Below are positions 3,019-42,737 of a DNA stretch of 42,869 nucleotides, one piece after another. Each line of letters starts with the position of its first letter. Positions within the stretch are counted from its first letter, which is position 1. Under the pieces are notes generated by a model that was not told where the DNA came from, did not search any database, and saw nothing but the letters and a program-made list of their open reading frames with translations. Source of the stretch: Muribaculaceae bacterium (GTDB lineage Bacteria; Bacteroidota; Bacteroidia; Bacteroidales; Muribaculaceae); the NCBI GenBank assembly GCA_017621055.1, contig JAGATX010000003.1, positions 1 to 42,869 on the forward strand, written 5' to 3'. The translations under genes were made by a program, and so were the position numbers.

Positions 3019-4902
3019 ATGGAACCCCTGCGACATGAATGCGGTATCGCCCTGATACGACTCCGCAAACCGCTCGAATATTATCGCCGCAAGTACGGCA
3101 CATATACCTATCCGCTGGACCGCCTTTATCTGCTTATGGAAAAGCAACATAACCGCGGACAGGAGGGCGCCGGCATCGGCGTTGTAAAACTCAACGCGCC
3201 TGCCGGCCACGAATATGCATTCCGCGAGCGCGCTCTCGGCACGGGGGCCATCGACGAGATTTTCGGGCGCGTGAGTTCGGCGCTCCCCGGCGACCTCAAC
3301 AAGATGTCAGCCGAGGAGGTCGATGCCTATACCCCCTTTGTCGGCGAGATCTATATGGGCCACCTGCGCTACAGCACCACCGGGCGCAGCGGTCTGGAAT
3401 ATACCCATCCGTTCCTGCGACGCAACAACTGGCCGTCGCGAGCACTGATGCTGTGCGGCAACTTCAACATGACCAATGTCGACCGGATTTTCGAGTCGAT
3501 AGTCAACACGGGTCAGCATCCGCGGCTGATGAGCGATACCATTCTGCTTCTCGAACAGATAGGCAACGCCCTCGATAAGGAAAACCACCGTCTTTACCGC
3601 CATTACCGCGATGAGCTGCAGGATCCCGTCCTTGCCGAGCGTATCGCCGGGGAAATAGACCTTGGCGCCGTGCTGGCGGCATCGTCGCCGCTGTGGGACG
3701 GCGGATATGCCATCGTCGGAGCTACCGGCTCCGGCAGTTCGTTTGTCATGCGCGATCCCGGTGGCATCCGCCCGGCGTTCTATCACATCGATGACGAAAT
3801 CATTGTTGTGGCCTCCGAACGTCCTGTGATACAGACAGTGTTCAACCTCGACAAAGACGAGGTATGCGAGCTGGAGCCCGGCAGCGCTCTGCTCATCGAC
3901 GCCCGCGCCGAGGTGAAAGTGAGCCGGATACTCGAACCGACCGGCAACCACCGCTGCTCGTTCGAGCGTATCTACTTTTCGCGCGGGTCCGACGAGGATA
4001 TTTATCGCGAGCGGAAGGCCCTCGGCGCCAATATTGTGGACAAAGTCCTCGCGGCGATAGACCACGACTACGACAACGCCGTATTCTCGTTCATCCCCAA
4101 CACTGCCGAGGTGGCATACAACGGTATGATCGAAGAACTGACGCGCCGGCTCGACGCAAATCGCCTCGAAGAGATCAAAAACATATGCCACAGCGGCGGG
4201 GTGCCCGATGACGATACCCTCAAGAGTATCCTCGACAGGAAGATACGCACCGAAAAAGTGGCTATCAAGGATATAAAACTGCGTACTTTCATCGCTGCCG
4301 GGAGTAGCCGCAACGACCTTGCCACTCACGTCTACGACATCACCTACGGCACAATCCGCGCGGGAATCGACAGCCTTGTGGTAATCGACGACTCTATCGT
4401 TCGCGGCACCACGCTCACGCGGTCTATTCTGCGCATCCTCGACCGCCTAAATCCCCGAAAGATAGTGGTGGTGTCGTCGTCGCCGCAGGTACGATACCCC
4501 GACTGCTACGGCATAGACCTTCCCAACCTCGAGGAACTTGCGGCGTTCCGCGCTCTTATGGCGCTCCTCACTGCCGACGGGCGCCAGCACCTCATCGACG
4601 CGGCCTACGATGAATGCCGCCGTCAGCTGGAGCTGCCGGAGTGCAGCGCAAATGTGGTGCAACCACTCTATGCACTCTATACCGACGACGATATCTCCGC
4701 CATGATGGTGCAGATGCTTCGTCCTCAGGAGATTAATGCCGAGGTAAAGATAATTTTCCAGAGCCTGCAGGGGCTACATAATGCAGTGCCCTCATCACCG
4801 GGCGACTGGTATTTCTCCGGCAATTACCCCACCCCTGGCGGCACGAGAACGGTGAACCGCTCGTTCGCCGACTATTACGAAAAAACATATCTGCAGATAT
4901 GA
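3019..4902 (+). CDS. Amidophosphoribosyltransferase family protein (long PurF-like form)
   Basis: A class II glutamine amidotransferase fused to a phosphoribosyltransferase domain. Canonical PurF makes 5-phosphoribosylamine from PRPP and glutamine, the first step of purine synthesis. The presumed nucleophile Cys8 follows the short leader MEPLRHE, which would have to be removed to expose it. An HNRGQEGAGIGV glutaminase motif is at about residues 45-56. The PRPP loop VVIDDSIVRGTTL is at about 453-466. At 627 residues it is much longer than typical PurF (about 470-500), with inserts between the domains. From memory, Bacteroidales often carry such a long paralogue besides ordinary purF; whether this one makes phosphoribosylamine is unproven. 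It sits 17 nt after glnN and overlaps the next gene by 4 bp (ATGA), linking it to glutamine supply. Confidence 0.8.
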   Translation: MEPLRHECGIALIRLRKPLEYYRRKYGTYTYPLDRLYLLMEKQHNRGQEGAGIGVVKLNAPAGHEYAFRERALGTGAIDEIFGRVSSALPGDLNKMSAEEVDAYTPFVGEIYMGHLRYSTTGRSGLEYTHPFLRRNNWPSRALMLCGNFNMTNVDRIFESIVNTGQHPRLMSDTILLLEQIGNALDKENHRLYRHYRDELQDPVLAERIAGEIDLGAVLAASSPLWDGGYAIVGATGSGSSFVMRDPGGIRPAFYHIDDEIIVVASERPVIQTVFNLDKDEVCELEPGSALLIDARAEVKVSRILEPTGNHRCSFERIYFSRGSDEDIYRERKALGANIVDKVLAAIDHDYDNAVFSFIPNTAEVAYNGMIEELTRRLDANRLEEIKNICHSGGVPDDDTLKSILDRKIRTEKVAIKDIKLRTFIAAGSSRNDLATHVYDITYGTIRAGIDSLVVIDDSIVRGTTLTRSILRILDRLNPRKIVVVSSSPQVRYPDCYGIDLPNLEELAAFRALMALLTADGRQHLIDAAYDECRRQLELPECSANVVQPLYALYTDDDISAMMVQMLRPQEINAEVKIIFQSLQGLHNAVPSSPGDWYFSGNYPTPGGTRTVNRSFADYYEKTYLQI

Positions 4903-5453
4903 GTGAAATATGGACCCGGATGATGTCCGGAGAACCCTACGACGCCGGGCATCCTGAGTTGCTCGACAAGCTCCAGACCACACGAAAGCTGATTTATGAA
5001 TTCAACAATCTTTCGCCTGAGCGCAACGACGAGAGGATGGCAATCATCCGGCGGCTGCTTGGAGGATGCGGGCGGAATATTCATATAAACAGCCCGTTTC
5101 GCTGCGACTATGGTTGCAATATAGTAGTTGGTGAGAATTTCTTCGCCAATTTCAATCTCACTATCCTCGACGAAAACCGCGTAACTATCGGCGACAACGC
5201 CTTTATCGGCCCCAATGTGAGCATTTATACTGCGTGTCATCCTCTCGACGCCACCACGCGCAACAAACTGGTTGAGTGGGCACTCCCCGTCACTGTCGGC
5301 CACAATGTTTGGATCGGCGGCAACGCCGTGATACTCCCCGGCGTGACGATAGGCGACAATGTTGTTGTCGGTGCCGGAGCCGTGGTGACCAGATCGGTAC
5401 CGGCCGACAGCGTAGTGGCCGGCAATCCCGCACGTGTGCTCCGCAAAATCTAA
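4899..5453 (+). CDS. Sugar O-acetyltransferase, maltose/galactoside acetyltransferase family
   Basis: A 184-residue left-handed beta-helix (hexapeptide repeat) enzyme that transfers acetyl from acetyl-CoA to a sugar hydroxyl. The Maa/LacA N-terminal cap is visible (GEPYD at about 11-15). The segment YTACHPLD at about 109-116 carries the catalytic histidine. Hexapeptide turns follow (VWIGGNAVILPGVTIGDN) and the usual VVAGNPARV close. The length is normal for the family. Its start overlaps the stop of the PurF-like gene (ATGA), which implies translational coupling. Its stop overlaps by 4 bp the stop of the convergent MFS gene. The acceptor sugar cannot be told from sequence. Confidence 0.88.
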   Translation: MSEIWTRMMSGEPYDAGHPELLDKLQTTRKLIYEFNNLSPERNDERMAIIRRLLGGCGRNIHINSPFRCDYGCNIVVGENFFANFNLTILDENRVTIGDNAFIGPNVSIYTACHPLDATTRNKLVEWALPVTVGHNVWIGGNAVILPGVTIGDNVVVGAGAVVTRSVPADSVVAGNPARVLRKI

Positions 5454-23760: not shown

Positions 23761-24045
23761 AAAATCAAAGGCAAGAGAGCCTGATAACAATTTTTTTTGA
23801 CATCGATACACCACATCAAAGCGGATTGGGAAACTCGTCAATTATATGTGAAATACCGAGACAAGCTTAGCCGACCAATGGCGGGCCTCAGCCGGCACCT
23901 GCGTGCCGGTAGCCTTTGAGCCGGAGGATTACAAAGGACGGCGAGCACTCAAATCCTGTCTTTTCGGAGTTTCATCGCATCCTTTGATGTGGCTCTTATA
24001 AAAGCCGCGCACCTTGTGTCACCACACCGTGCGCGGCTTTTCTTT
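23761..24045 (+). ncRNA. Free-standing structured small RNA, possibly 6S-like
   Basis: About 285 nt with its own promoter and an intrinsic terminator but no ORF. The centre folds as one long irregular rod. 23811-23821 pairs perfectly with 23982-23992 (11 bp). GCG-AT/GAAACTC (23821-23836) pairs with GAGTTTC-ATCGC (23967-23978). CCGA/GACA pairs further in. The tip is CCGGCAC-CTGC-GTGCCGG (23892-23909). An 18-nt one-sided bulge (about 23838-23855) interrupts the rod. A rod of about 180 nt with a central opening resembles 6S RNA, but I cannot confirm the family. It is not tmRNA, RNase P RNA or SRP RNA by any motif I can see. Confidence 0.6.
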
Positions 24046-24836: not shown

Positions 24837-24924
24837 GGAGCGATGCTCGAGTGGCTGAAGAGGCACGCCTGGAAAGCGTGTATACGCCAAAAGCGTATCG
24901 GGGGTTCGAATCCCCCTCGCTCCG
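24837..24924 (+). tRNA. tRNA-Ser (GGA), probable phage attachment site
   Basis: An 88-nt class II tRNA. The acceptor GGAGCGA pairs with TCGCTCC. The anticodon arm CACGC-CTGGAAA-GCGTG gives GGA. A long variable arm (TATACGCC...GCGTAT) and T-loop TTCGAAT are present. A tyrosine recombinase starts 190 nt downstream on the same strand, so the 3' half of this gene is the likely attB/attL core. Confidence 0.96.
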
Positions 24925-24930
24925 CAAGAT

Positions 24931-26403: not shown

Positions 26404-28223
26404 GTTTCCTGCATCGGGTAAAATACCCCTTTGAGTAACTGCGACATACCGTTTTTTTCGGTGAAGGTCGCAGTTATTTTTTCGCAGATATAGCGCTTGC
26501 CTCGGATGTGGAAAACGGAGCGGACATCGGGGATGGTATCGGAGAGGAATTTGAAGGTGGTTTTCATTTTCGGGTCGATGTTGTGGATGATTTTGCCTCG
26601 CCGTTCCTGTCGGTCGTTGATGCGCAGGGAAAAATGGGCGTAGTTGAAATTACTCCAATCATCGGCGATAACGATATTCTCTACATTCGGATAAGGCAGA
26701 TGGGTGCCCTGATAGTAGTTGGAGCCGTCGTACCAACCTATATAAATGCAATCGTAATATTCCGATTTCTTTTCTTTCTCCCCTGCGGCGAGCGATGATG
26801 CCGAGTGCGTCTGCATGAAGGGATGATCGCTATCGTCCTCGCTCGTCGTATTGTTGTCTTCATCGTAGCCGGAGAAAGAGAGGAACAGCACACGACCGTA
26901 TTTCTCCTCGGTATCGTCTATCCATGCCGGAACAAACTCAATCTCTACCTGCTCGGCGTCCTCGCTATCGTCCACGATACGACCGCCAAAGAGATTGACG
27001 GGTTGCAGACGGCAGGTATATTGATAGTAAACGCGGATACGGCTTGCGTGCCACTCTATAACCTGCTTACGGCTGACGGCACGGATTACGAAGTAAGCGT
27101 CGCAGTCGGCGGCATAGAGCAGCTTGTCGATGCGGTTGTCGCGGTGGTGTTGACCGTCCCAAGTGCTATATGGTTTGTTGGCGTTAAGAAGCTCCGTCAT
27201 TGAGTTATATCGTATCACTCTATTCTGCCAGCCCTTAACAAACCAATCGCAGGAGTAGAATTTCCACATTTCGTGGTCGCAATCTTTGTAGACAAGGTTC
27301 TTCGCCTCCATATACTCGCAGCGGTCATCGTCCACCTTAACCTCGGTGGAGTGTTCCTCGACCACACGTTCAAGGCAGACAGGTCTTTTAGCGGCCAAAG
27401 TCGCCTGAGTGAAGGCAAACGTAATACGCTTGCCCCGATGGTCGAAGTCGAACTCTCCGCCGAGGAACAGTTCAAGTTTCTCAAAATATTCTTCGACCGT
27501 CCAATGCGGCAAGGCGTTGGCGAAGCCCGGCATGTACCAAGCATAAGGGAGAGTATTGCAGATTAGCAAATACTTGTATTCCTCCACTTCCTCCCATTTG
27601 GAGAAGTCGGCAGAGTAGCCGACAGCCTCGCATATCTTCTTTGTGATGTAAAGGAGATATGGTTGCCAAGAAAGGCCGGTGGTGTCCTCGCTCCACTCGA
27701 AATGAGATTTATTCTGCACTGCATCGTCGACGATATTCTCCGCCTTATTCTGAATGTTGCCCGAATAATCGTTGACCCACGGGAGCGCCACGCATTGGCA
27801 CCCGGTATTGTCGGGGAACCAGGCGTTTGAGGGCGTAATTGCAGATTTGGCCGTTGTCGGTGGCGCTCCGAGGTCAAGCTCGTTGATGTAGACTTTATCG
27901 AAAGTCTTGTCGAAGTTCTGCTCGCTTCGACCCTCCAAAAATTGAGTCTTGACCTCCACCTCGCTAATCTCGGTTATGGTTATAGAGCCGAACTTGTAGA
28001 AGCTGCCGTCGCGGATTTCGCAGTCGAAGATAACTTTCTGCGCCGCGACATCGGCTCGGTTGATATGGCCGAAGATAGCGAGATTTTCGGGGCAACCTCG
28101 CAGAGGGAAAGTGATGGTTAAGGTATAGCCATCACTACCCGAAAACATTCTATTTTCGGAAACGTACTCAAAACATGTACCCTTTTTGAGTGCGGCCAGT
28201 TGATTATTGACGTAGATTTGCAT
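26400..28223 (-). CDS. Large phage tail protein after the tape measure gene
   Basis: 607 residues with no signal peptide or membrane segment. It starts MQIYVNNQLAALKKGTCFEYVSENRMF and continues with beta-rich text (TLTITFPLRGCPENLAIFG) and many Trp and Tyr. The gene begins in a TAATG overlap with the tape measure stop, so it is translationally coupled. In tailed phages the gene after the tape measure usually encodes a distal tail or baseplate hub protein, and I assign it that role by position. No enzymatic motif is visible. Confidence 0.6.
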   Translation of the reverse strand: MQIYVNNQLAALKKGTCFEYVSENRMFSGSDGYTLTITFPLRGCPENLAIFGHINRADVAAQKVIFDCEIRDGSFYKFGSITITEISEVEVKTQFLEGRSEQNFDKTFDKVYINELDLGAPPTTAKSAITPSNAWFPDNTGCQCVALPWVNDYSGNIQNKAENIVDDAVQNKSHFEWSEDTTGLSWQPYLLYITKKICEAVGYSADFSKWEEVEEYKYLLICNTLPYAWYMPGFANALPHWTVEEYFEKLELFLGGEFDFDHRGKRITFAFTQATLAAKRPVCLERVVEEHSTEVKVDDDRCEYMEAKNLVYKDCDHEMWKFYSCDWFVKGWQNRVIRYNSMTELLNANKPYSTWDGQHHRDNRIDKLLYAADCDAYFVIRAVSRKQVIEWHASRIRVYYQYTCRLQPVNLFGGRIVDDSEDAEQVEIEFVPAWIDDTEEKYGRVLFLSFSGYDEDNNTTSEDDSDHPFMQTHSASSLAAGEKEKKSEYYDCIYIGWYDGSNYYQGTHLPYPNVENIVIADDWSNFNYAHFSLRINDRQERRGKIIHNIDPKMKTTFKFLSDTIPDVRSVFHIRGKRYICEKITATFTEKNGMSQLLKGVFYPMQET

Positions 28224-31200
28224 TATTTACGGGATTTGGGTGATTTGTTTTTCATTAAGCGGTCGTAATCATCCTGAGCCTTTTGGATGCCGTAATCGCC
28301 GGCCACGGTATTTACGGTCACAAAAGGTTCATTAAGCCGAGTATTTAGAGCGGAGATAGTCGAGCGCAGCTCGGCGATAACTGCGGCGGAGCCGTTCTCC
28401 TCTACTCCTGAATAATCCGGGAACGTAACTGCGGGTCCCGATGAAGATTGAACACGGGCAATCTTTATGGGGGCAGTTATTTTTTCAGAAACATCAGCCA
28501 TACTGATAGAACCGATGGTATTATTTTTCTGCGCATAGTCGAGGGCTTCGAGCAAGGGGCGCGTCCGGGGATTGTTGACGAGCTTTTGCGAGGCGACCCA
28601 TTCCCCTTTGTGAACGACACCGGCCACTTCATCGGATTTGCCCTCCGGGGTAAAGCCGCCGGACTCGTAGCCTTGTGCCTCGGAAGCCTGTTGCTGCTTC
28701 TTGATGGTCGCGATTTGCAGCGCACCTGCGGCCACGGCCATAGTCGCCGCGATAGGTGCGAGGATATAACCGACCACGGGGATAGCTGCGGCGGAGCCGT
28801 AGGCATTAAGGGCGTTGGTAGCGGTCTGCGCCACTGCCTGTATCACCTGCATCGCAAACATCTTCTTGTTGGCGTCGTTCTTGATTTTGGCCTTGGCGGC
28901 CTCTTTCTCCTTTTCGGCTTTCTTGATCTTGTAAGAGTTGCCCTCGGCAAGCTCGATTTCACGGTCATACTTTTTCTCGACCTTTGCAGTTTCGAGTTCG
29001 GCGCAAGCGCCGACATACTCGGAATACTGCTGCATACCGGCGTTCATTACAGAGAACACCGACGAAGCGAGAGCTGCAAGGCGTGTGGCCCAGTTGCCGC
29101 CGTCTTCCTCCGTGGAGTCAAAGAAATTTTTCCACGCCTCGTATATGTCGAGCAACTGGTTGGTCTCCTGAGAGCCAAAGCGCCGCACGGCGTCGAGGCG
29201 CTTCTTCTCGTAATTACGGGAGATGCGCTCCTTGGCTTTCTCCGCCTGTTCATGGGAGATTACACCCTGGGCTTCGAGCGAGGCCACGCGGTCGAGGTCT
29301 CGCCGCTTCTGCTCGTCCATAGCCTTGGGCGAATTGCCGTCGGGTCTGGCCGACTGCGGCAGATATTCCGTGGCGTACTTCTTGCGGAGGTCTGCCTGTG
29401 CTTGCAGGAACTCCTCGTAAGAAATAAGGTTCTTGTTGTATGCCTCAAGCAACAATTCTTCTTCGAGGTCATAGCGCTTCTTGGCTTCGAGATATTCATA
29501 CTGCTTCTTCCACTCGGCCACACGCTGTGCGAGAAGTTTCTGACGGCGCAGCTGCTCCGTGGCCTCGGCCTGTTCAATCTGCACCTGATAGTTGTGCCAT
29601 TCCTCGGAGGCATTATTATAGGCGGCTTGCATCTGTTTGAGATACTTAATGCGTATCTCAAAGAGTCTCTGTTGCAAGGCTTCCTCCTTGCCGTAGAGTT
29701 CGTTGCCGGGCGTATAAAAGTCCATCTGCGCCTGAGTTTCCTCGGCCTGTTGCTGACGCTTTGCGTCCTCGACTTTGAGAGCGGCATTCTTTTTGAGCCA
29801 TGCCGCCTGTAATTCGGCCTTTTTCTTCAAAAGTTCCTGATAATCCTCGTCTTCCTGAAGATTATTGTCCTCAAAAATCTTCAGCCGGTCATCGTAATAT
29901 TTGACTTCAAGCTCGTACTTTTTGAGCAGGAAGTCAGACCACGATTTCATACCTGCCGAGTAATCGGCCAGATTCTGTGTATCTCCGGCCTCCCATACGC
30001 CTTTAGCATCGTTGAGCTGCTGCTTGAACTCCTGCCGGGCCTTGATTTCGGCACGACGAGCGGCGGCTTCGGCAGCCTTGCGCTCCTGCTCGGCCTTGCG
30101 GCGGTCGGCAACGGTTTCGTAAGGAGTATAATCATCAAGGGTAAAATCGGGATTACCTGCGACCGGTGCATTGTTGGGAGTTTCGGCGACAGAGAGGCGC
30201 GCACGGGCTTCTTCGAGGAAGTCATGGACTTCCTGTGCTGTAAGAGTGCGCGTAGTCGGGTTAGGCTGATTAAGACCTAACACGATAGTTCCACCCTCGT
30301 TGGCCGCCGCTTTTTCCTCCAGATAAGGAATGATGCGGCGCAGTTCCGATTCGGGATAGGTAGCGAGCGGATTCTGTTCGCGCTCGATAGTGTCGATGGC
30401 TCCCAACGTCTCGCGGTACTCCGTCTGTTGTCCTATCATCTCGTTAACGATGTTGACGGGGTGCTCTGCCCAGCCTTTGGCTTGCCAGGCGTTACCCTTG
30501 ATGGCTTGCAGCTCGCTGACGATGTCTTCGGTGAGAGTGCCGGTGGTTTCCAACTGGTACACGACCGTATTTGTGATACGGACGGCATCGCGCAGGGCCA
30601 CGCCCTCGTCGATGAGCGACTGCTGCAGCTTCTTGGCCTGATCTTTCAGGGCATCACGGTGAGTTTCCTCGGCTGTTTCGCGGGCAGTCTCAATGGCTCG
30701 TTCCTTTGCGGCGAGCCTTGCCGCGGCGGCAAGCCGGTTGTATGCGGCTGTAAGATTGATGATTTCGCCGCGCTCGTTTATCAACCCTTTCAGATATTTG
30801 CCGTACTGCTTGATGATTTCGTCCTTGACCTCCTTGTATTCCTTCGTACCTTTTTTGGCGGCTTCAAGACGGCCCATGAGCGTGTCGATGTTGTGCATCT
30901 CCTTGTTCAGCTCCTCGCTGAACTTGGCGGCTGTGTTCCTGGCTTCACGCATCTTCTTTGTATATTCGGAAGTGCGGTCACAGAGAGATTTTATAGCGAT
31001 GACAACAGCAGCTATTACGGAAAGGATTAATCCGAAGGGATTAGCCTTGACGACGGTATTGAGAAGACGCATGGCATGAGTGGCTGCGCCCAAACCTTTT
31101 GTAAAGGCTAACATGGCGATACGACCGAGAATGATTGCAGTGCGGTAAGCTGTCATAACAGCTTTGCCGACACCGAGGACGGCGTGCCATGCGAGAGATG

Positions 31201-32767
31201 CTGTCTTTACCAAAAGCACCCAGCCGTAATACACCCCTATGACGGTAACGACATTGGCGATGGCTTTGCGGTGCTTTACTATAAACTCGACAAGGACATT
31301 CAGCACACGGAGAAAAGCCGATGATGAAGTATAGATGTGCTTCATCAGCGGGTAAAGCTTTTCGCCGAGTTCGATGGCAAGTTCGCTGACGCGCTTCCGC
31401 GCCTTGTCGATGCTTGCCTGAACGGTGTTGTTGAAAATGGCATACTCGTTGGAGGCAGATGTACCCTCGTTAAATGCCTGGTTCGCTTCGCCGAGCTGCC
31501 ATTTGAGGAAGTCGAGATGCGAAGAAAGGTTCGAGAGCACCGAGGACACACGGGCACCGTCGAGTCCGAGGTCCTGGAACAGCGGCGAGAGGACGGCGAG
31601 AGCCTGATCCTCGCCGAGCCGATGCAGGGCTTCGAGGAACATCATCACGCCCTGTGTGGTGCTTTTATTGAGCGTTTCAATAAAAGAGTTCGTTTCCAGC
31701 CCCACCTTTCGGGCCATCTCAGCCGGTTTCTTGAACAGCTCCATAATGGTACGCTGTAAAGCCGTGGCCGACATCTCCACCTTTTGGCCGTGAGCGTCAA
31801 GAGTGGCGGCAAAGGCCATAATCTCAGGGATAGTCATTTTGGCTGTGGAGCCGATACCGGCCATTCGCTGTGCGAACTCCACGATAAAAGGCTTGGCAGC
31901 GGTACAGTTCTGCGAAAGGTGATTGACCGTGGAGCCGATTTTGAGCATGGCGTCTTTAACACCATACATCTGCTCCATGCCGAAGATATTACTCAACTTG
32001 GCGATGGTCTGCGTTGCACCTTCTCCGAGGTCGACCAGAGCCACGTTGATGATCGAAGCGGCCTCGACATACTCCTTGACGGAAGCCACGGTGTTGTAAC
32101 CGAGGCGCCCGCCCTCCTGGGCGAGAAGATTAAGCTGCTCGCGGGCGAGACGGGTATCCATACCCTTGAAGATCTCGTTGAGTTCTTCAACCTCTGCGGC
32201 GGTCATACGGGTATACTTGATGGTGTTTGCCATCTGTTCTTCCATATCTGCGTATGACTGGACCGCCTTACGTCCGGCCATCACCAGACCGGTAACAGCG
32301 GCGGCAAAAGCCATGATGGCAGTCTGGGCGTTGTTGAGCCACGTGTTCATTCTCGACCACAGAGACTTCTGTGTGGCGAGCGTGGCGTTGACCTTTTGGA
32401 GTTCAGCCTTGACAGCCTTAATCTTGGCGATTTGGGCATCCCACGTGGCGGTGCCGCGCTGAATGCCGTTGAGTTGCTGCTGAAGCAGCTTCAACGCCTT
32501 GTTAAGCTCTTTGGGAGTAGCTTTATCAAGACGGCGCAGAGTGGCATCGACAGAGGACGATGACCCTTTCAGTTGCTCCATCATGCGCTGAGTTGATTTC
32601 AACTCGCGCTGAAGTTTCTTCATCGAAGCTTTGTCACCGGCAGTAGATGCTTTCGCCAGTTCACGCTCCAGACGTTTGGCGTCCTTTTCGAGCGTTGCGA
32701 GCATCTTCTGCGCCTGTTTGCCGTTGACGGAGAGCACGACGTTAGCGGTAGTAGTATAATTTGCCAT
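28223..32767 (-). CDS. Phage tail tape measure protein
   Basis: 1,514 residues from ATG 32767 (MANYTTTANVVLSVNGKQ), chosen over a 67-codon upstream extension because AAGGA sits 5 nt before it. It sets tail length and is ejected during infection. The layout is: coiled coil (about 20-110), a TP901-type tape-measure core (MANTIKYTRMTAAEVEELNEIF... KMTIPEIMAFAATLDAHGQ), hydrophobic helices at about 540-650 (VVTVIGVYYGWVLLVKTASLAW; FGLILSVIAAVVIAIKSL), long charged coiled coils with Lys/Glu/Gln runs, a second hydrophobic patch (VVGYILAPIAATMAVAAGALQIA), and a short tail. At about 0.15 nm per residue, the relation known for tape measures, it would span a tail over 200 nm. Confidence 0.92.
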   Translation of the reverse strand: MANYTTTANVVLSVNGKQAQKMLATLEKDAKRLERELAKASTAGDKASMKKLQRELKSTQRMMEQLKGSSSSVDATLRRLDKATPKELNKALKLLQQQLNGIQRGTATWDAQIAKIKAVKAELQKVNATLATQKSLWSRMNTWLNNAQTAIMAFAAAVTGLVMAGRKAVQSYADMEEQMANTIKYTRMTAAEVEELNEIFKGMDTRLAREQLNLLAQEGGRLGYNTVASVKEYVEAASIINVALVDLGEGATQTIAKLSNIFGMEQMYGVKDAMLKIGSTVNHLSQNCTAAKPFIVEFAQRMAGIGSTAKMTIPEIMAFAATLDAHGQKVEMSATALQRTIMELFKKPAEMARKVGLETNSFIETLNKSTTQGVMMFLEALHRLGEDQALAVLSPLFQDLGLDGARVSSVLSNLSSHLDFLKWQLGEANQAFNEGTSASNEYAIFNNTVQASIDKARKRVSELAIELGEKLYPLMKHIYTSSSAFLRVLNVLVEFIVKHRKAIANVVTVIGVYYGWVLLVKTASLAWHAVLGVGKAVMTAYRTAIILGRIAMLAFTKGLGAATHAMRLLNTVVKANPFGLILSVIAAVVIAIKSLCDRTSEYTKKMREARNTAAKFSEELNKEMHNIDTLMGRLEAAKKGTKEYKEVKDEIIKQYGKYLKGLINERGEIINLTAAYNRLAAAARLAAKERAIETARETAEETHRDALKDQAKKLQQSLIDEGVALRDAVRITNTVVYQLETTGTLTEDIVSELQAIKGNAWQAKGWAEHPVNIVNEMIGQQTEYRETLGAIDTIEREQNPLATYPESELRRIIPYLEEKAAANEGGTIVLGLNQPNPTTRTLTAQEVHDFLEEARARLSVAETPNNAPVAGNPDFTLDDYTPYETVADRRKAEQERKAAEAAARRAEIKARQEFKQQLNDAKGVWEAGDTQNLADYSAGMKSWSDFLLKKYELEVKYYDDRLKIFEDNNLQEDEDYQELLKKKAELQAAWLKKNAALKVEDAKRQQQAEETQAQMDFYTPGNELYGKEEALQQRLFEIRIKYLKQMQAAYNNASEEWHNYQVQIEQAEATEQLRRQKLLAQRVAEWKKQYEYLEAKKRYDLEEELLLEAYNKNLISYEEFLQAQADLRKKYATEYLPQSARPDGNSPKAMDEQKRRDLDRVASLEAQGVISHEQAEKAKERISRNYEKKRLDAVRRFGSQETNQLLDIYEAWKNFFDSTEEDGGNWATRLAALASSVFSVMNAGMQQYSEYVGACAELETAKVEKKYDREIELAEGNSYKIKKAEKEKEAAKAKIKNDANKKMFAMQVIQAVAQTATNALNAYGSAAAIPVVGYILAPIAATMAVAAGALQIATIKKQQQASEAQGYESGGFTPEGKSDEVAGVVHKGEWVASQKLVNNPRTRPLLEALDYAQKNNTIGSISMADVSEKITAPIKIARVQSSSGPAVTFPDYSGVEENGSAAVIAELRSTISALNTRLNEPFVTVNTVAGDYGIQKAQDDYDRLMKNKSPKSRK

Positions 32768-33299
32768 AATTCCTTGTTGAATACGATGTTTGTAGGTGTT
32801 CCCTGCAAATATCGCCACGTCTTTTTGAAGGAGAAAAGACGTTAAAACACTGCTATTCCGCTTTTCAGGGTTGGTGTCGGGCAGGATACAGGACCGACGG
32901 GAGGGTGCAGGGAAGGAAAGAACCGGCCTTGATTTTCGTGGGCTCAGGGGAATTGGGGGGTCCTGCAAAAATCAAGCCTTAAGGATTTGACTCTCAGGCA
33001 AATTGGTAGCATTTGCGCGGGTCCTGTCTAAAAAATCCCCGATTTTGTAGCGGGTTGCAAATGCGAAACGGCTGTTAAACAGATGTTTAGGGGGTTCGGG
33101 GGCGCAGCCCCCGAGTGGCATCATGCACCCCCCACCGCGCTGACGCTCGTTTTTCCTCTTGCCCTCCTTGCCCTCACGCTATATGCAGAGAGCCAACCCA
33201 TTGCGCGGTAAAATCGCTGCCGTGTGCGTGGAAATTCCGCTTGCGGATTTCCTCGCTCACGACAGCCACCGCTTTTCCTCGGCGCAGATGCAATCAAGA
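32768..33299. other. Non-coding stretch before the tape measure gene
   Basis: No credible ORF. It contains a hairpin GCAAAT-TGGTAGC-ATTTGC (32998-33016), two related segments GGTCCTG followed by an A-rich run and ATC (32959 and 33020), a strong hairpin CGGGGGC-GCA-GCCCCCG (33097-33113) and CCGCTTGCGG with flanking pairing (33231-33251). No TAnnTTTG box facing the tape measure gene was found, so its promoter is unknown. Confidence 0.4.
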
Positions 33300-34340
33300 C
33301 GAGGTGCTTGACGTGGCGATGTGCGGTGATGACGATGCGGCGCGTAGCGGAAGGCTTGTCAGCCAAAGGAACGCAGGGAACTCGGAGTGCCTACATCAGG
33401 ATTAGAGCAAACGGCAGGTGTCGTGTAACGCAGTGAAGCGACAGGCTGTCTCTAAAATCCGCTTGCGGTTTGAGAGTTAGCCGACCTGCCCTTGCCCTAA
33501 GCCGTAGGCTAACTCGGAGTGAGTGAAGTGGTTGGCCGACAGCCGTAGCGGAGTCTGTGCATCGGCGCACCACACAGAGGGGCCTGGGGTTGGGCGTATA
33601 ATCAATGTGCGAAGGGCGTTGAGTCGGCATTGCCGGAGCTGACGATGTGAAAAGGTGGAGAAGGCTGTGCCGGAACAAAGAGCAAACCGGGGTGGCGCGG
33701 AGAGCAACTGAGCAGCCAGGGAGTCAGTGAAGATTTGTCGAGCTGTCTCCCGACCCCCACTTGCCCTGCGCCGGAGGCTGTTCGGGTATAGACTTCGGAG
33801 CCTCACATCGTGGCGTAGGCGGAGAGTATGCCGATGCGCCCTGAGCGAATAATCCGCTTTGCCCGAATGGGCGGTAAATGACTGTGCCACTGGCTAAACA
33901 TCGTGCGTTCATCAGTCCTCTTATGGGCGGGAGGATGGTGTCGGACGGCGGCAGTGCGCCGACCGGAGGACGGAGTGAAGATGCCTGTCCTTACGAGCCG
34001 GAATAGCAAGCGGAGGTTTCGGGGCAAAGGATATAGAGACGCGCCTGACACCGCGACGTAGGAACGGTGTCGGGATAAAGCGTTGGAGTAGCCTTTGAAG
34101 AGAGTTTGCTGTCGTAGGCGCAATGATAGCGACCCGACACCGTGACGCAGGAGCGGTGTCGGGAGGAAGCGATAATGGAGACGGAGGCGGCAATCTCTCG
34201 ACCCGAAGGCCGCAGCGGTCGTTAGTCGAAGTGGAGCGAAGCAGAGCCTCGACCAACGATGCTCGGGCTTGGAAGGATGTAGGCAGCAAGCGGAGAACGG
34301 AGGAAGGTTTGTATGGCTGACGGCCGACACCAGCCGGGTG
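33300..34340 (+). ncRNA. Candidate large structured RNA in the phage late region
   Basis: About 1 kb without a plausible protein. The plus strand is purine-rich (60-70% A+G in the five 60-base lines I counted), while neighbouring genes are purine-rich on the minus strand. Stems seen: 33474-33482/33507-33515 (9 bp perfect), 33719-33727/33743-33751 (T/T mismatch), 33774-33779/33799-33804, 33943-33950/33957-33964, 33967-33973/33985-33991, 34044-34053/34065-34074, 34108-34113/34125-34130, 34133-34142/34154-34163, 34219-34229/34249-34259, closed by 34202-34206/34263-34267. Two hairpins 89 nt apart share arms and loops (consensus YGACGYAGGAR). CGYAG occurs 12 times from 33060 to 34340. Strand and ends are uncertain; no promoter was found. 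Confidence 0.4.
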
Positions 34341-34360
34341 GGTCAGAAAAGATGAACGCG

Positions 34361-34394
34361 ACAAACAAAACGAGCTACCCTCTCGGGCAACTCG
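34361..34394 (-). terminator. Terminator of the lysis cassette
   Basis: On the minus strand a 10-bp stem with two G-U pairs and a GAGA tetraloop (34371-34394) is followed by TTTTGTTTG (34361-34370). It lies 45 nt after the spanin stop, so it separates lysis transcription from the island to its left. Confidence 0.65.
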
Positions 34395-34439
34395 CTTTGC
34401 CAATTATGAAAAAAACTTTACTCTCGAAGTGAATGATAA

Positions 34440-34916
34440 TCAGCGTTTGCGGTAGCAAACGTAGAACAGGACACCTGCGATGACAAGCGCGATTACCAGA
34501 ACCGTTGTGCCGTCAGGCGGATTATACAGGCGCGTTGTGGCGGTGTGTTCCGTCGAAGCCTCGGCGGCTGATTGATGATAGGCCACCGTATCAAGCCGAT
34601 TGAAGGCTTCGACACTATCCCTATGAACACGCCGCCGGTCGATGACGCGCCCACGGGTTGCCGTCAGGCGAATAATCTCCGGCGCCTCGGCGTATTCAAC
34701 GGGGCGCTCGATATTGATTTTCAGGGTATCGAAGCTAAAATCAATATTACGGATGGCCGAGTCAATCACCGCGATTGTGCGGTGATGTTCAGACCGGGCG
34801 ACGCTGTCGCGGTCAAGCGACTTGTTACTGACGGTTTCTTTGTGGGAGCGGCAACCACCCATCAAGGTGGTTGCGGCGAGAACAAAGAGAAATATGGAAG
34901 TGCGGAAGCGTATCAT
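34440..34916 (-). CDS. Probable one-piece spanin (outer-membrane lipoprotein with C-terminal membrane helix)
   Basis: 158 residues. The N-terminal lipoprotein signal MIRFRTSIFLFVLAATTLMGGC has Cys22 as the presumed lipidated residue (the -3 Met is a slight departure from the lipobox). A polar, charged middle of about 110 residues follows. A C-terminal membrane helix GTTVLVIALVIAGVLFYVC ends in RKR. A protein lipidated in the outer membrane and anchored in the inner membrane at its other end is the layout of unimolecular spanins such as T1 gp11, which fuse the two membranes at lysis. It overlaps the amidase gene by ATGA and is last of a holin-endolysin-spanin series. No sequence family recognised. 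Confidence 0.6.
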   Translation of the reverse strand: MIRFRTSIFLFVLAATTLMGGCRSHKETVSNKSLDRDSVARSEHHRTIAVIDSAIRNIDFSFDTLKINIERPVEYAEAPEIIRLTATRGRVIDRRRVHRDSVEAFNRLDTVAYHQSAAEASTEHTATTRLYNPPDGTTVLVIALVIAGVLFYVCYRKR

Positions 34917-35323
34917 AAGGCGGCGTATTCTTTAGTGGCGTCGAAAGACGGACAGGCTTTGTTGGCAAAATCGCGGTGGCCGTGAATAGCGGCTACCGTG
35001 TATTTTGCTTTCAACTGACGAAGCAGCTCAACGAGTGCAACTCGTTGAGCGTCTGTTCGTGTATCTTTCGGCGTCTTGCCGTCAGATGCGCAGCCGCCGA
35101 TGTAGCACACACCTATGGAGTGCGCGTTGTGACCGGTGCAGTGTGCGCCGACCCGGTCTTCAGGACGGCCACGATGAACTGAACCGTCACGATAAATCAC
35201 ATAATGATAGCCGATGCAGCGGAAGCCACGCTGACGATGCCAGGCGTCAATCTGTTGGACGGTGAAGTCCTTGCCCTCCGGCGTAGCAGAGCAATGGACG
35301 ATGATTTGGTTAATCTTTCTCAT
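34913..35323 (-). CDS. N-acetylmuramoyl-L-alanine amidase (phage endolysin)
   Basis: 136 residues of the Amidase_2/PGRP fold (T7-lysozyme type), a zinc enzyme that cuts the bond between MurNAc and the stem peptide. Zinc ligands are His10 in IIVHCSAT, the His in VGAHCTGHNAHSIGVCYIGG, and the Cys in the C-terminal HRDFANKACPSFD. The catalytic Tyr region is GYHYVIYRDGS. The protein is a bare catalytic domain with no signal peptide, so it needs a holin. It overlaps the holin-like gene by 14 bp and the spanin gene by 4 bp. Confidence 0.93.
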   Translation of the reverse strand: MRKINQIIVHCSATPEGKDFTVQQIDAWHRQRGFRCIGYHYVIYRDGSVHRGRPEDRVGAHCTGHNAHSIGVCYIGGCASDGKTPKDTRTDAQRVALVELLRQLKAKYTVAAIHGHRDFANKACPSFDATKEYAAL

Positions 35324-36807: not shown

Positions 36808-36875
36808 AACGATGCTGTTTTATACGGCAAAGTTATGGCTATGAATTTGCGTCCGAAAAGACACGAGAAGTACAC

Positions 36876-38540: not shown

Positions 38541-38637
38541 TATTGTACTGCGAAAGTACGGTAATGCGCATACCGGGCAAAAGACAGAAGAAAAGCCCCG
38601 ATTTCTCGGAGCTTTGCGGAGAGGAAGCGAGGGTCGT

Positions 38638-41585: not shown

Positions 41586-42685
41586 TACGAGAAAGTCGGG
41601 TTGAAATTCTGGTTGAAGATGCCGGGAGTGGTCGGCATATCGACCGACGGAGTATTGTCGGCGAAGCGCCATGTAAACTTGACCTTGTTAAGTTTTTCGT
41701 CCGTGTCGGAAAACTCGCAGGTGTAGTCTGTAATGAGGATTGGACGCAGAGCGTCAAAGTCCGTATCATACTTGCTGCAGTCCTGGCCGAAAGGTATGCG
41801 TACCGACGGCGAGGTGAGCATCTGTTCTATCTGAATACATTCGTCGGAGGTCAGGGGGCCGCTCTCGACTTCATACTCTTTTGAAGTCGAGATGTCGTAG
41901 AACTGCGAGGTCTTGCCGACGGAGGCAAGCGAGCGGTCGGTCTTGACCTTGACCGTAGTTGTGCGAGGCAAAGCGATATGCTCGGTTATGCCGAAGCAGT
42001 TCAGATAGAAGATGGGCGTATTGGTCTCCAGAGCCGGGTCGATGAAGAACGTGGCCGAGCGGTTGCCGCAACGGACGGTAACCGACTGGAGTATCAGCGA
42101 CTCAATTTTCTTGCGCTCGATGATAAGGTCGCGCAGAGCGTCGAGCATGATATATTCGGTCAGCACCCCGTTGCTGTGAGCGATCTGGCCGTTGCCTGAG
42201 TGAGCGTACTGGTATGTGTCGCGTAGCCCCTTGTCGTTGATGAAGGTGGCGTAGGCGCGGAACATAACGCCCTCCCGATTAGCGGCGTACCACGACACGT
42301 TGATGTACCCGTCGGGTGAAAGACGGCGTGTGTGCGACAGGGTCAGAAAGTTTTCTCTTAGCCAGTCGCTCGGGTCGTATAATCGGGTGAGCTTGTCGCA
42401 GTACAACACCGGGAAGTCGAGTTCGGCAGTTTCATCGCCGGAAGATGCTTCGAGGTGAACATCAACGAAGTTCATCTCGGTGTTGCCCGACATATAGTGT
42501 TCGAGAAGCGGAATGACGTCGGAAACGACGATATTGCCGTCGAAGGCGTAATATAAGCCTTCGAGCAGTGTATTTCCGTAGATTGATATGCGGAAATTCA
42601 CGGCCTCGTGGTCTGTGGCAATGGTGATGTCGGGCAAGTCACTCGACAGGAACAGGCTCGGTATATAAACTGTAAACTTAATCAT
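41585..42685 (-). CDS. Phage structural-type protein of unknown function
   Basis: 366 residues from ATG 42685 (MIKFTVYIPSLFLSSDLPDITI). The longer frame to 42775 is rejected because a -7 box TATCTTTG lies immediately before this ATG. The protein is beta-rich with many Tyr, Asp and Thr and has no signal. It ends in GIFNQNFNPTFS. The composition is like the 607-residue tail protein, so a tail or baseplate component is likely, but nothing proves it. Coupled (TAATG) to the 77-residue gene. Confidence 0.6.
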   Translation of the reverse strand: MIKFTVYIPSLFLSSDLPDITIATDHEAVNFRISIYGNTLLEGLYYAFDGNIVVSDVIPLLEHYMSGNTEMNFVDVHLEASSGDETAELDFPVLYCDKLTRLYDPSDWLRENFLTLSHTRRLSPDGYINVSWYAANREGVMFRAYATFINDKGLRDTYQYAHSGNGQIAHSNGVLTEYIMLDALRDLIIERKKIESLILQSVTVRCGNRSATFFIDPALETNTPIFYLNCFGITEHIALPRTTTVKVKTDRSLASVGKTSQFYDISTSKEYEVESGPLTSDECIQIEQMLTSPSVRIPFGQDCSKYDTDFDALRPILITDYTCEFSDTDEKLNKVKFTWRFADNTPSVDMPTTPGIFNQNFNPTFS

Positions 42686-42737
42686 ACGGCAAAGATACCG
42701 GGCTGACAGCGGAGGATAAAAGACATATTCAGGGCAA

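Follow-up and report, generated by a model that had tools for sequence, protein, structure and literature searches.

What is encoded by an island without open reading frames (ORFs) in the otherwise protein-coding late region of a gut prophage? The question is raised by a contig of a Muribaculaceae bacterium (JAGATX010000003.1), which we analysed over its whole stretch of 42,869 nucleotides, here called the window. The late genes of the prophage on this contig are on the minus strand, and no ATG-initiated ORF of at least 80 aa was found in the 1,675-bp gap that separates a small ORF of the lysis region from the gene for the tail tape measure protein (TMP). A first-pass annotation, made from the letters alone, had described the island as ORF-less and about 1 kb long, and had proposed a large structured phage RNA, read from the plus strand and perhaps distantly related to GOLLD or ROOL. 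The island is indeed ORF-less, and at about 1.35-1.6 kb it is longer than had been thought. A large structured RNA is also the best reading of it, given its homologues, the lack of a coding signal and covarying helices, while the proposed kinship and the plus strand fared less well. We suggest, with a probability of roughly 0.6, that the island is the gene of a large structured non-coding RNA, read on the minus strand like the late genes; the RNA would measure about 1.35 kb here and more where its 5′ module, module A, is repeated.

The genes on either side are all on the minus strand. TMP (28223-32767) is recognised by Pfam PF10145 and by PHROG tape measure families, and its named relatives are mostly from Muribaculaceae or uncultured Bacteroidales. 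The lysis genes comprise an amidase (34913-35323; Pfam Amidase_2, PHROG 822) and the small ORF 3′ of it (34440-34916), which matches no Pfam or PHROG family and for which ‘spanin’ is a working label only. This small ORF is recognised in 26 of 74 loci (duplicates counted), where the match ends 1,676-2,899 bp ahead of TMP. The lysis unit is closed by the minus-strand, terminator-like hairpin with a U-rich tract that had been noted before (34361-34394); hairpin and U-run are kept in 8 of 10 aligned rows, the window included, and the exceptions are L055, where it is not kept, and L060, where it is disrupted. The island extends from this terminator (34394-34361) to the TMP promoter (32841-32806). 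Elsewhere in the window, a 6S-type RNA (Bacteroidales-1; 23809-24000) and a tRNA-Ser gene (24837-24925), which may be the prophage attachment site, lie near the tail end of the prophage, and two tRNA-Gly (gcc) genes (147-220 and 275-348), 54 bp apart, have equal length and equal Rfam scores.

Relatives of the island were sought at several levels, with near-duplicates and duplicate loci removed ahead of alignments and counts. A DNA search of 99 genomes gave matches in 8, the window's own included and some of them short, and the order of lysis genes, island and TMP is preserved in the three best-matching genomes. Of the 64 loci that remained once 9 duplicates had been removed, 62 match, in sense orientation and within the 4.5 kb ahead of TMP, profiles of the 3′ domain and the leader that had been trained on these same loci. 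The other two, L114 and L132, have no match to either profile upstream of TMP, so some related phages manage without the island RNA. A covariance model of the most conserved core, named R1, found the island in only 3 of 295 Bacteroidales genomes, again counting the window's own (E ≤ 1e-6, strict filters). Among catalogued phages, blastn with the island found no relative, and tblastn with the first 500 aa of TMP found six records that are 25-34% identical. Contigs L097, L105, L110, L113, L118, L119, L128 and L131 break off in the island or close to it, 0.3-2.6 kb ahead of TMP, which is what tandem modules that hinder assembly would lead to. Two related loci have features of their own: an IMG/VR contig, L041, has a match to the SAM-I/IV riboswitch about 1.2 kb upstream of TMP (4741-4851), and a prophage scrap with a fragment of the RNA nearby (L030, 8310-8642) joins the beginning of a 336-aa late protein to a piece of a second one.

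Read 5′ to 3′ on the minus strand, the proposed RNA unit (about 1.35 kb; 33009-34354) would consist of module A, a linker, a 3′ domain and a terminal stem, as delimited by nhmmer matches, by alignments of relatives and by two copies outside phages described below (the promoter-driven L153 and the remnant L185). Module A (33902-34354; matches 34354-34088 and 34092-33902) is about 400 nt long and contains an internal repeat of a CCGACACC hairpin. The window has one copy, and several relatives have two to four at a period of about 555 nt; in many of the 62 loci that match the 3′ domain or leader, module A was not found. Its main covarying stem, of 13 bp, falls in the region 34134-34276, as defined by an alignment of 26 copies, named A2. 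The linker (33603-33901) is defined by alignments, and an extra copy of the module occupies this space in several relatives. The 3′ domain (33116-33602; about 490 nt), delimited by folds and profile matches, is the most widespread part, with nested long-range helices inside an outer helix that spans about 460 nt. The most conserved core (33064-33209), the region of model R1, reads GCATATTCCGC ... GGGCGGTGGGGGGT ... GC-rich hairpin in most relatives; the two motifs are near-invariant among relatives, and the window reads GCATATAGCG. The terminal stem (33009-33064; arms 33057-33064 and 33009-33016) encloses a CTACAAA element, and its arms are kept despite differing letters. Perfect arms of 7-9 bp are present in 10 of 11 sequences, and nine of these share the same stem, perfect over 8-9 bp with differing letters (GCATTTGC, GCATCGGC and ATATTCGCA among them; L034 and L060 have identical arms). 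The tenth, L187, has a different 7-bp stem, and L185 has none. A hammerhead-like CTGATGA motif was rejected on inspection of the alignment only, being broken by variants such as CTGACGG.

The island folds better than chance, as its many stem-loops had suggested. The minimum free energy of 33040-34035 has z-scores of −3.1 on the plus strand and −5.1 on the minus strand against 20 dinucleotide shuffles each, and with column shuffles as the reference, consensus folds of three regions reach −7.4 to −11.2 on either strand. For single modules the minus strand has the lower z-score in 9 of 16 (means −3.3 and −2.9). In the 26 copies of the A2 alignment, 98.1% of the cells of the main stem of module A are paired, as compared with 21-57% in slid controls, a comparison that favours the stem in that its structure was derived from the same alignment. 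Nine of its 16 pairs have changed on both sides, and double changes occupy 74 cells versus 26.7 in shuffles; two of the five measures are barely above shuffles (pairs with double changes, 9 versus 6.9; pair types, 17 versus 16.7).

We also compared the alignments with a null that preserves phylogeny, in which the observed substitutions are redistributed along the tree. When only pairs of the structure are tested, 10 of 93 are significant in module A (12 sequences), 6 of 36 in its A2 part and 4 of 123 in the 3′ domain (13 sequences); slid structures give 0-2, and an RNase P control gives 33 of 115. A stricter test of all pairs leaves two structure pairs in module A, two in A2, none in the 3′ domain and three in RNase P. 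Covarying helices, whose lack the first-pass annotation had named as decisive against an RNA, are therefore present in module A and, in the structure-restricted test only, in the 3′ domain. A deep alignment of the core (42 sequences) has no covarying pair under the phylogenetic null, and its consensus fold is weak on both strands (8 and 4 pairs), so that model R1 has only 8 pairs. With covariation that is significant but below that of RNase P, and with none in the deep core, the structure of the island is supported, though less strongly than that of a classical RNA.

The late genes share a spaced promoter motif, GTCTTTT-N20-(T)AnnTTTG, which precedes TMP (32806-32841, minus strand) in 28 of 29 loci, L129 being the miss, and begins 54-78 nt ahead of the start codon (about 140 in L103). 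Further matches on the minus strand lie upstream of the gene that precedes the lysis genes (36828-36862), in the late region with a TTCG variant (38551-38585), and upstream of a late gene whose start codon is at 42685 (42690-42724). All four sites in the prophage are on the late strand, versus 0.065 expected from shuffles, and the host part of the contig has none; the pattern was defined once examples had been seen. Its right half resembles the Bacteroides −7 box, and the late regulon of these phages may be marked by this motif. Since TMP has a promoter motif of its own, the island sits between two late units and is unlikely to be the 5′ leader of TMP.

Phages are not the only carriers of the RNA. 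An integrative element in genome G328 has a complete copy, with two modules, the 3′ domain and the terminal stem. The same element encodes an integrase, a BT4734-like/PriCT_2 primase, DUF3987 and HTH_17 proteins, a nuclease (DUF1016/YhcG) and a Schlafen-AlbA protein; a Pfam search with 14 ORFs of contig G328:C76, which did not take in every short ORF, gave no match to a relaxase or to a structural family of phages. This RNA copy (L153) has a phage-type promoter with a single mismatch about 110 nt upstream, in sense orientation. The short ORF that comes after the promoter matches the starts of open frames in G137 and G165 (79-83% over 24 aa). The two such frames that are on prophage contigs share the strand of TMP and lie about 24 kb upstream of it, and the one in G165 is a Clp protease according to Pfam. 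The L153 RNA is thus preceded by a promoter and the start of a ClpP gene, and its promoter region can be aligned with that of the phage. In G027, a remnant of the RNA (L185) is accompanied by a promoter variant alone, with no ORF; the two copies are related, and hence are not independent evidence. In our judgement the promoter-preceded element copy is the strongest clue that the RNA may be transcribed late and in sense, and it also hints that the element may be a phage satellite.

Elements of the same type (primase, DUF3987, HTH) adjoin the 3′ end of the RNA in G187 and G304. By locus, the RNA is carried or adjoined by elements with the BT4734-like primase, DUF3987 and HTH genes in L153 (5443-8542, with L184 984-5835), L155/L158 and L189 (370-3250), and contigs that extend far enough also show an integrase and genes that resemble defence genes (DUF1016, Schlafen-AlbA, AbiEii). 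These DUF3987-primase integrative elements may be Bacteroidales phage satellites. In L158 a phage-type late promoter motif (5038-5072, plus strand) lies just upstream of the element's HTH-DUF3987-primase genes. In L155 the 3′ end part of the RNA (profile B 376-488 and the start of the leader) occurs twice at the phage-element junction (2062-1660), as if the element had brought its own copy or had inserted by recombination there.

Of the readings that compete with a minus-strand RNA, the one that survives best takes the island for a cis-acting DNA element common to phage and integrative element, i.e. a packaging, replication or recombination site whose hairpins would form in single-stranded or supercoiled DNA and be selected as DNA. 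A small but real chance must be given to this idea, which accords with the roughly equal folding of the two strands, with the presence of an island copy beside the primase gene of a primase-bearing element and with the wobble counts. In pairs found in the folds of both strands, G-U is hardly preferred over A-C, the minus-strand GU:AC ratios being 47:53 in module A (15 sequences), 38:69 in the 3′ domain (13 hand-chosen sequences) and 13:14 in the leader (13 sequences), whereas one and the same procedure gave 156:31 for the true strand of RNase P (56 genomes matched, loci given for 30 and 27 used, with L203 omitted and two failing the length limit). These counts are RNA-like on neither strand. 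However, the helices of the island are nested, with partners roughly 120-250 nt apart and internal loops between, and helices nested at such distances are unusual for DNA sites. Packaging sites usually lie elsewhere than the island does, and the terminase is not in the contig. The element copy behind a phage-type late promoter likewise argues for an RNA.

If the island is transcribed, the strand has to be decided. The plus strand had been preferred on the basis of G-U pairs, a preference that does not stand out clearly in the pairs common to the folds of both strands. An early strand-neutral scan gave GU:AC ratios of 13:2 in module A, 1:0 in the 3′ domain and 0:4 in the leader, and a later, larger one gave 37:15 and 14:8; we relied instead on the fold-based counts with their RNase P control, and rejected a strand call by wobble, there being no RNA-like answer for either strand. 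The best-covarying stem, that of module A, favours the minus strand: read from that strand, one of its positions is GU 21, GC 4 and AU 1, and only so does it pair in every one of the 26 copies. When the region is folded as plus strand, a G-U column of that fold is nearly constant too (25 of 26). In the 3′ domain the folding energy is lower on the plus strand and mismatches fit it by 69:38. The promoter context of the two non-phage copies nevertheless favours the minus strand, as both L153 and L185 follow a phage-type late promoter in minus-sense orientation, and from this context the RNA is probably on the minus strand.

That the same RNA is made from the plus strand, against the direction of the late genes, is less probable than even a DNA site. 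Besides the 3′ domain, it could draw on the purine richness of that strand, which had been put at 60-70% and is slightly weaker, at 59.1% over 33300-34340 (47-72% in 60-nt lines), as compared with 47.1% in TMP and 52.5% in the lysis genes on the same strand. Against it, none of the 29 loci scanned has a late promoter of this class that reads across the island in antisense, the sole antisense hit (L036) being 2.75 kb upstream of TMP and beyond the amidase; the inverted repeat is not followed by a T-run on the plus strand; the promoter of the integrative element points the opposite way; and the wobble of the module A stem fits the minus strand.

It is highly improbable that the island is a cluster of repeats, non-functional or mobile in the manner of MITE or REP sequences, that is rich in palindromes and gathers hairpins. 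The tandem modules, with their apparent exchange of segments, and the fragments found in host DNA would suit such a cluster, but in 62 of 64 relatives the island keeps its place and its strand, and it has near-invariant unpaired motifs; the window's own genome has no further copy above noise (other matches have E 0.39 or worse), on which ground a host repeat was rejected. That the island hides a protein-coding region is contradicted already, for although ORFs reach 253 aa in some relatives, and 175 aa on the minus strand of the window's island once GTG and TTG starts are allowed, the ORFs listed for relatives share no common frame, only 25 of 160 alignment gaps are multiples of 3, and in six sequence pairs of relatives the island has no codon phase (mean χ2 1.2-3.0 with 2 df; expectation 2) where TMP has a strong one (6.6-31), so that the homologues show the island to be non-coding rather than conserved as protein.

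We therefore return to a structured RNA on the late-gene strand as the preferred reading. Such an RNA would be made late in the lytic cycle: in the prophage, transcription would continue past the hairpin of the lysis unit into the RNA, and in the integrative element the RNA would be transcribed from the captured late promoter. The terminator-like hairpin that separates the island from the lysis promoter counts against this reading, as do the wobble counts, the two relatives that lack the island and the few genomes in which model R1 found it. The folded RNA, whose 3′ domain is conserved and whose 5′ modules vary in number, might serve in trans as a scaffold and might accumulate around assembly and lysis, as reported for GOLLD; an element would probably carry it in order to aid particle production or to divert a helper factor during growth of the helper. 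More speculatively, the island could represent a new class of giant modular phage RNA, which grows in length as tandem 5′ modules are added to a widespread 3′ domain; satellites of Bacteroidales would have taken it over along with a phage late promoter and the beginning of the ClpP gene, so that it would be made exactly at the time of helper particle assembly. If this tentative extension is true, one RNA is used or fought over by both parties of a helper-satellite pair.

Large ornate phage RNAs are few and their function is an open question. The island agrees with the general kind in being non-coding, longer than 600 nt and conserved in phages, and in having helices that covary beyond phylogeny (in the structure-restricted test; the all-pairs test gives 0, 2 and 2, and the deep core 0). 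Distant membership of GOLLD or ROOL, as had been suggested, found no support: on the island, whether of the window or of 13 relative loci, no Rfam family scores as high as its gathering threshold, and at E ≤ 10 the region 32700-34500 has only three chance-level matches, none to GOLLD or ROOL. We found no description of the island RNA in the literature; thousands of candidate RNAs have been reported from human microbiomes (PMC8040213), and parts of it may be among them, for instance in the supplements of that paper.

GOLLD is described as a large RNA of phages and prophages, often more than 800 nt long, that rises during lysis (PMC12286853), and in one prophage it was dispensable for phage production (PMC7567579). 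Like GOLLD, the island has a conserved 3′ part and a less conserved 5′ part, provided that the minus strand is the RNA. GOLLD, however, is often near tRNA genes, and the nearest tRNA in the window (24837-24925) is about 8 kb away from the island (the contig ends at 42869, with the other side of the prophage unseen); moreover, the 5′ part of the island is a tandem module, and Rfam gives no match. An oligomeric cage is a further mark of GOLLD. ROOL is likewise described as a large structured RNA of phages and prophages, of unknown function, with a 659-nt example (PMC12286853), and the island is a candidate for such an RNA too. It differs from ROOL in exceeding that example in length, in being modular, in lacking an Rfam match and in not being near a tRNA island in the window. 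A structure with multiple pseudoknots is a further mark of ROOL; the predictions for the island covered nested pairs only.

In position the island recalls the most abundant transcript of phage ICP1, a non-coding RNA of about 800 nt in an ORF-less space of about 1 kb at the lysis cluster (PMC7567579). ICP1, too, is a phage with satellites, but its host and the phage itself are different, and the two RNAs are likened here by position and description. PICMIs and other phage satellites are small integrative elements with integrase, replication and defence-like genes (PMC10803314), as is the Bacteroidales element, a candidate satellite; the latter differs in carrying a phage-like RNA behind a phage-type late promoter. 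That element, together with the two related phage loci that lack the RNA, constitutes a natural experiment, in which a comparison of phages and elements with and without the RNA makes its function testable. The island probably adds to the large structured RNAs of phages a new family, one that would be expressed late, is widespread in related prophages of gut Bacteroidales and is comparable in kind to GOLLD, to ROOL and to the lysis-adjacent RNA of ICP1; this family has a variable number of modules and a copy in a non-phage element.
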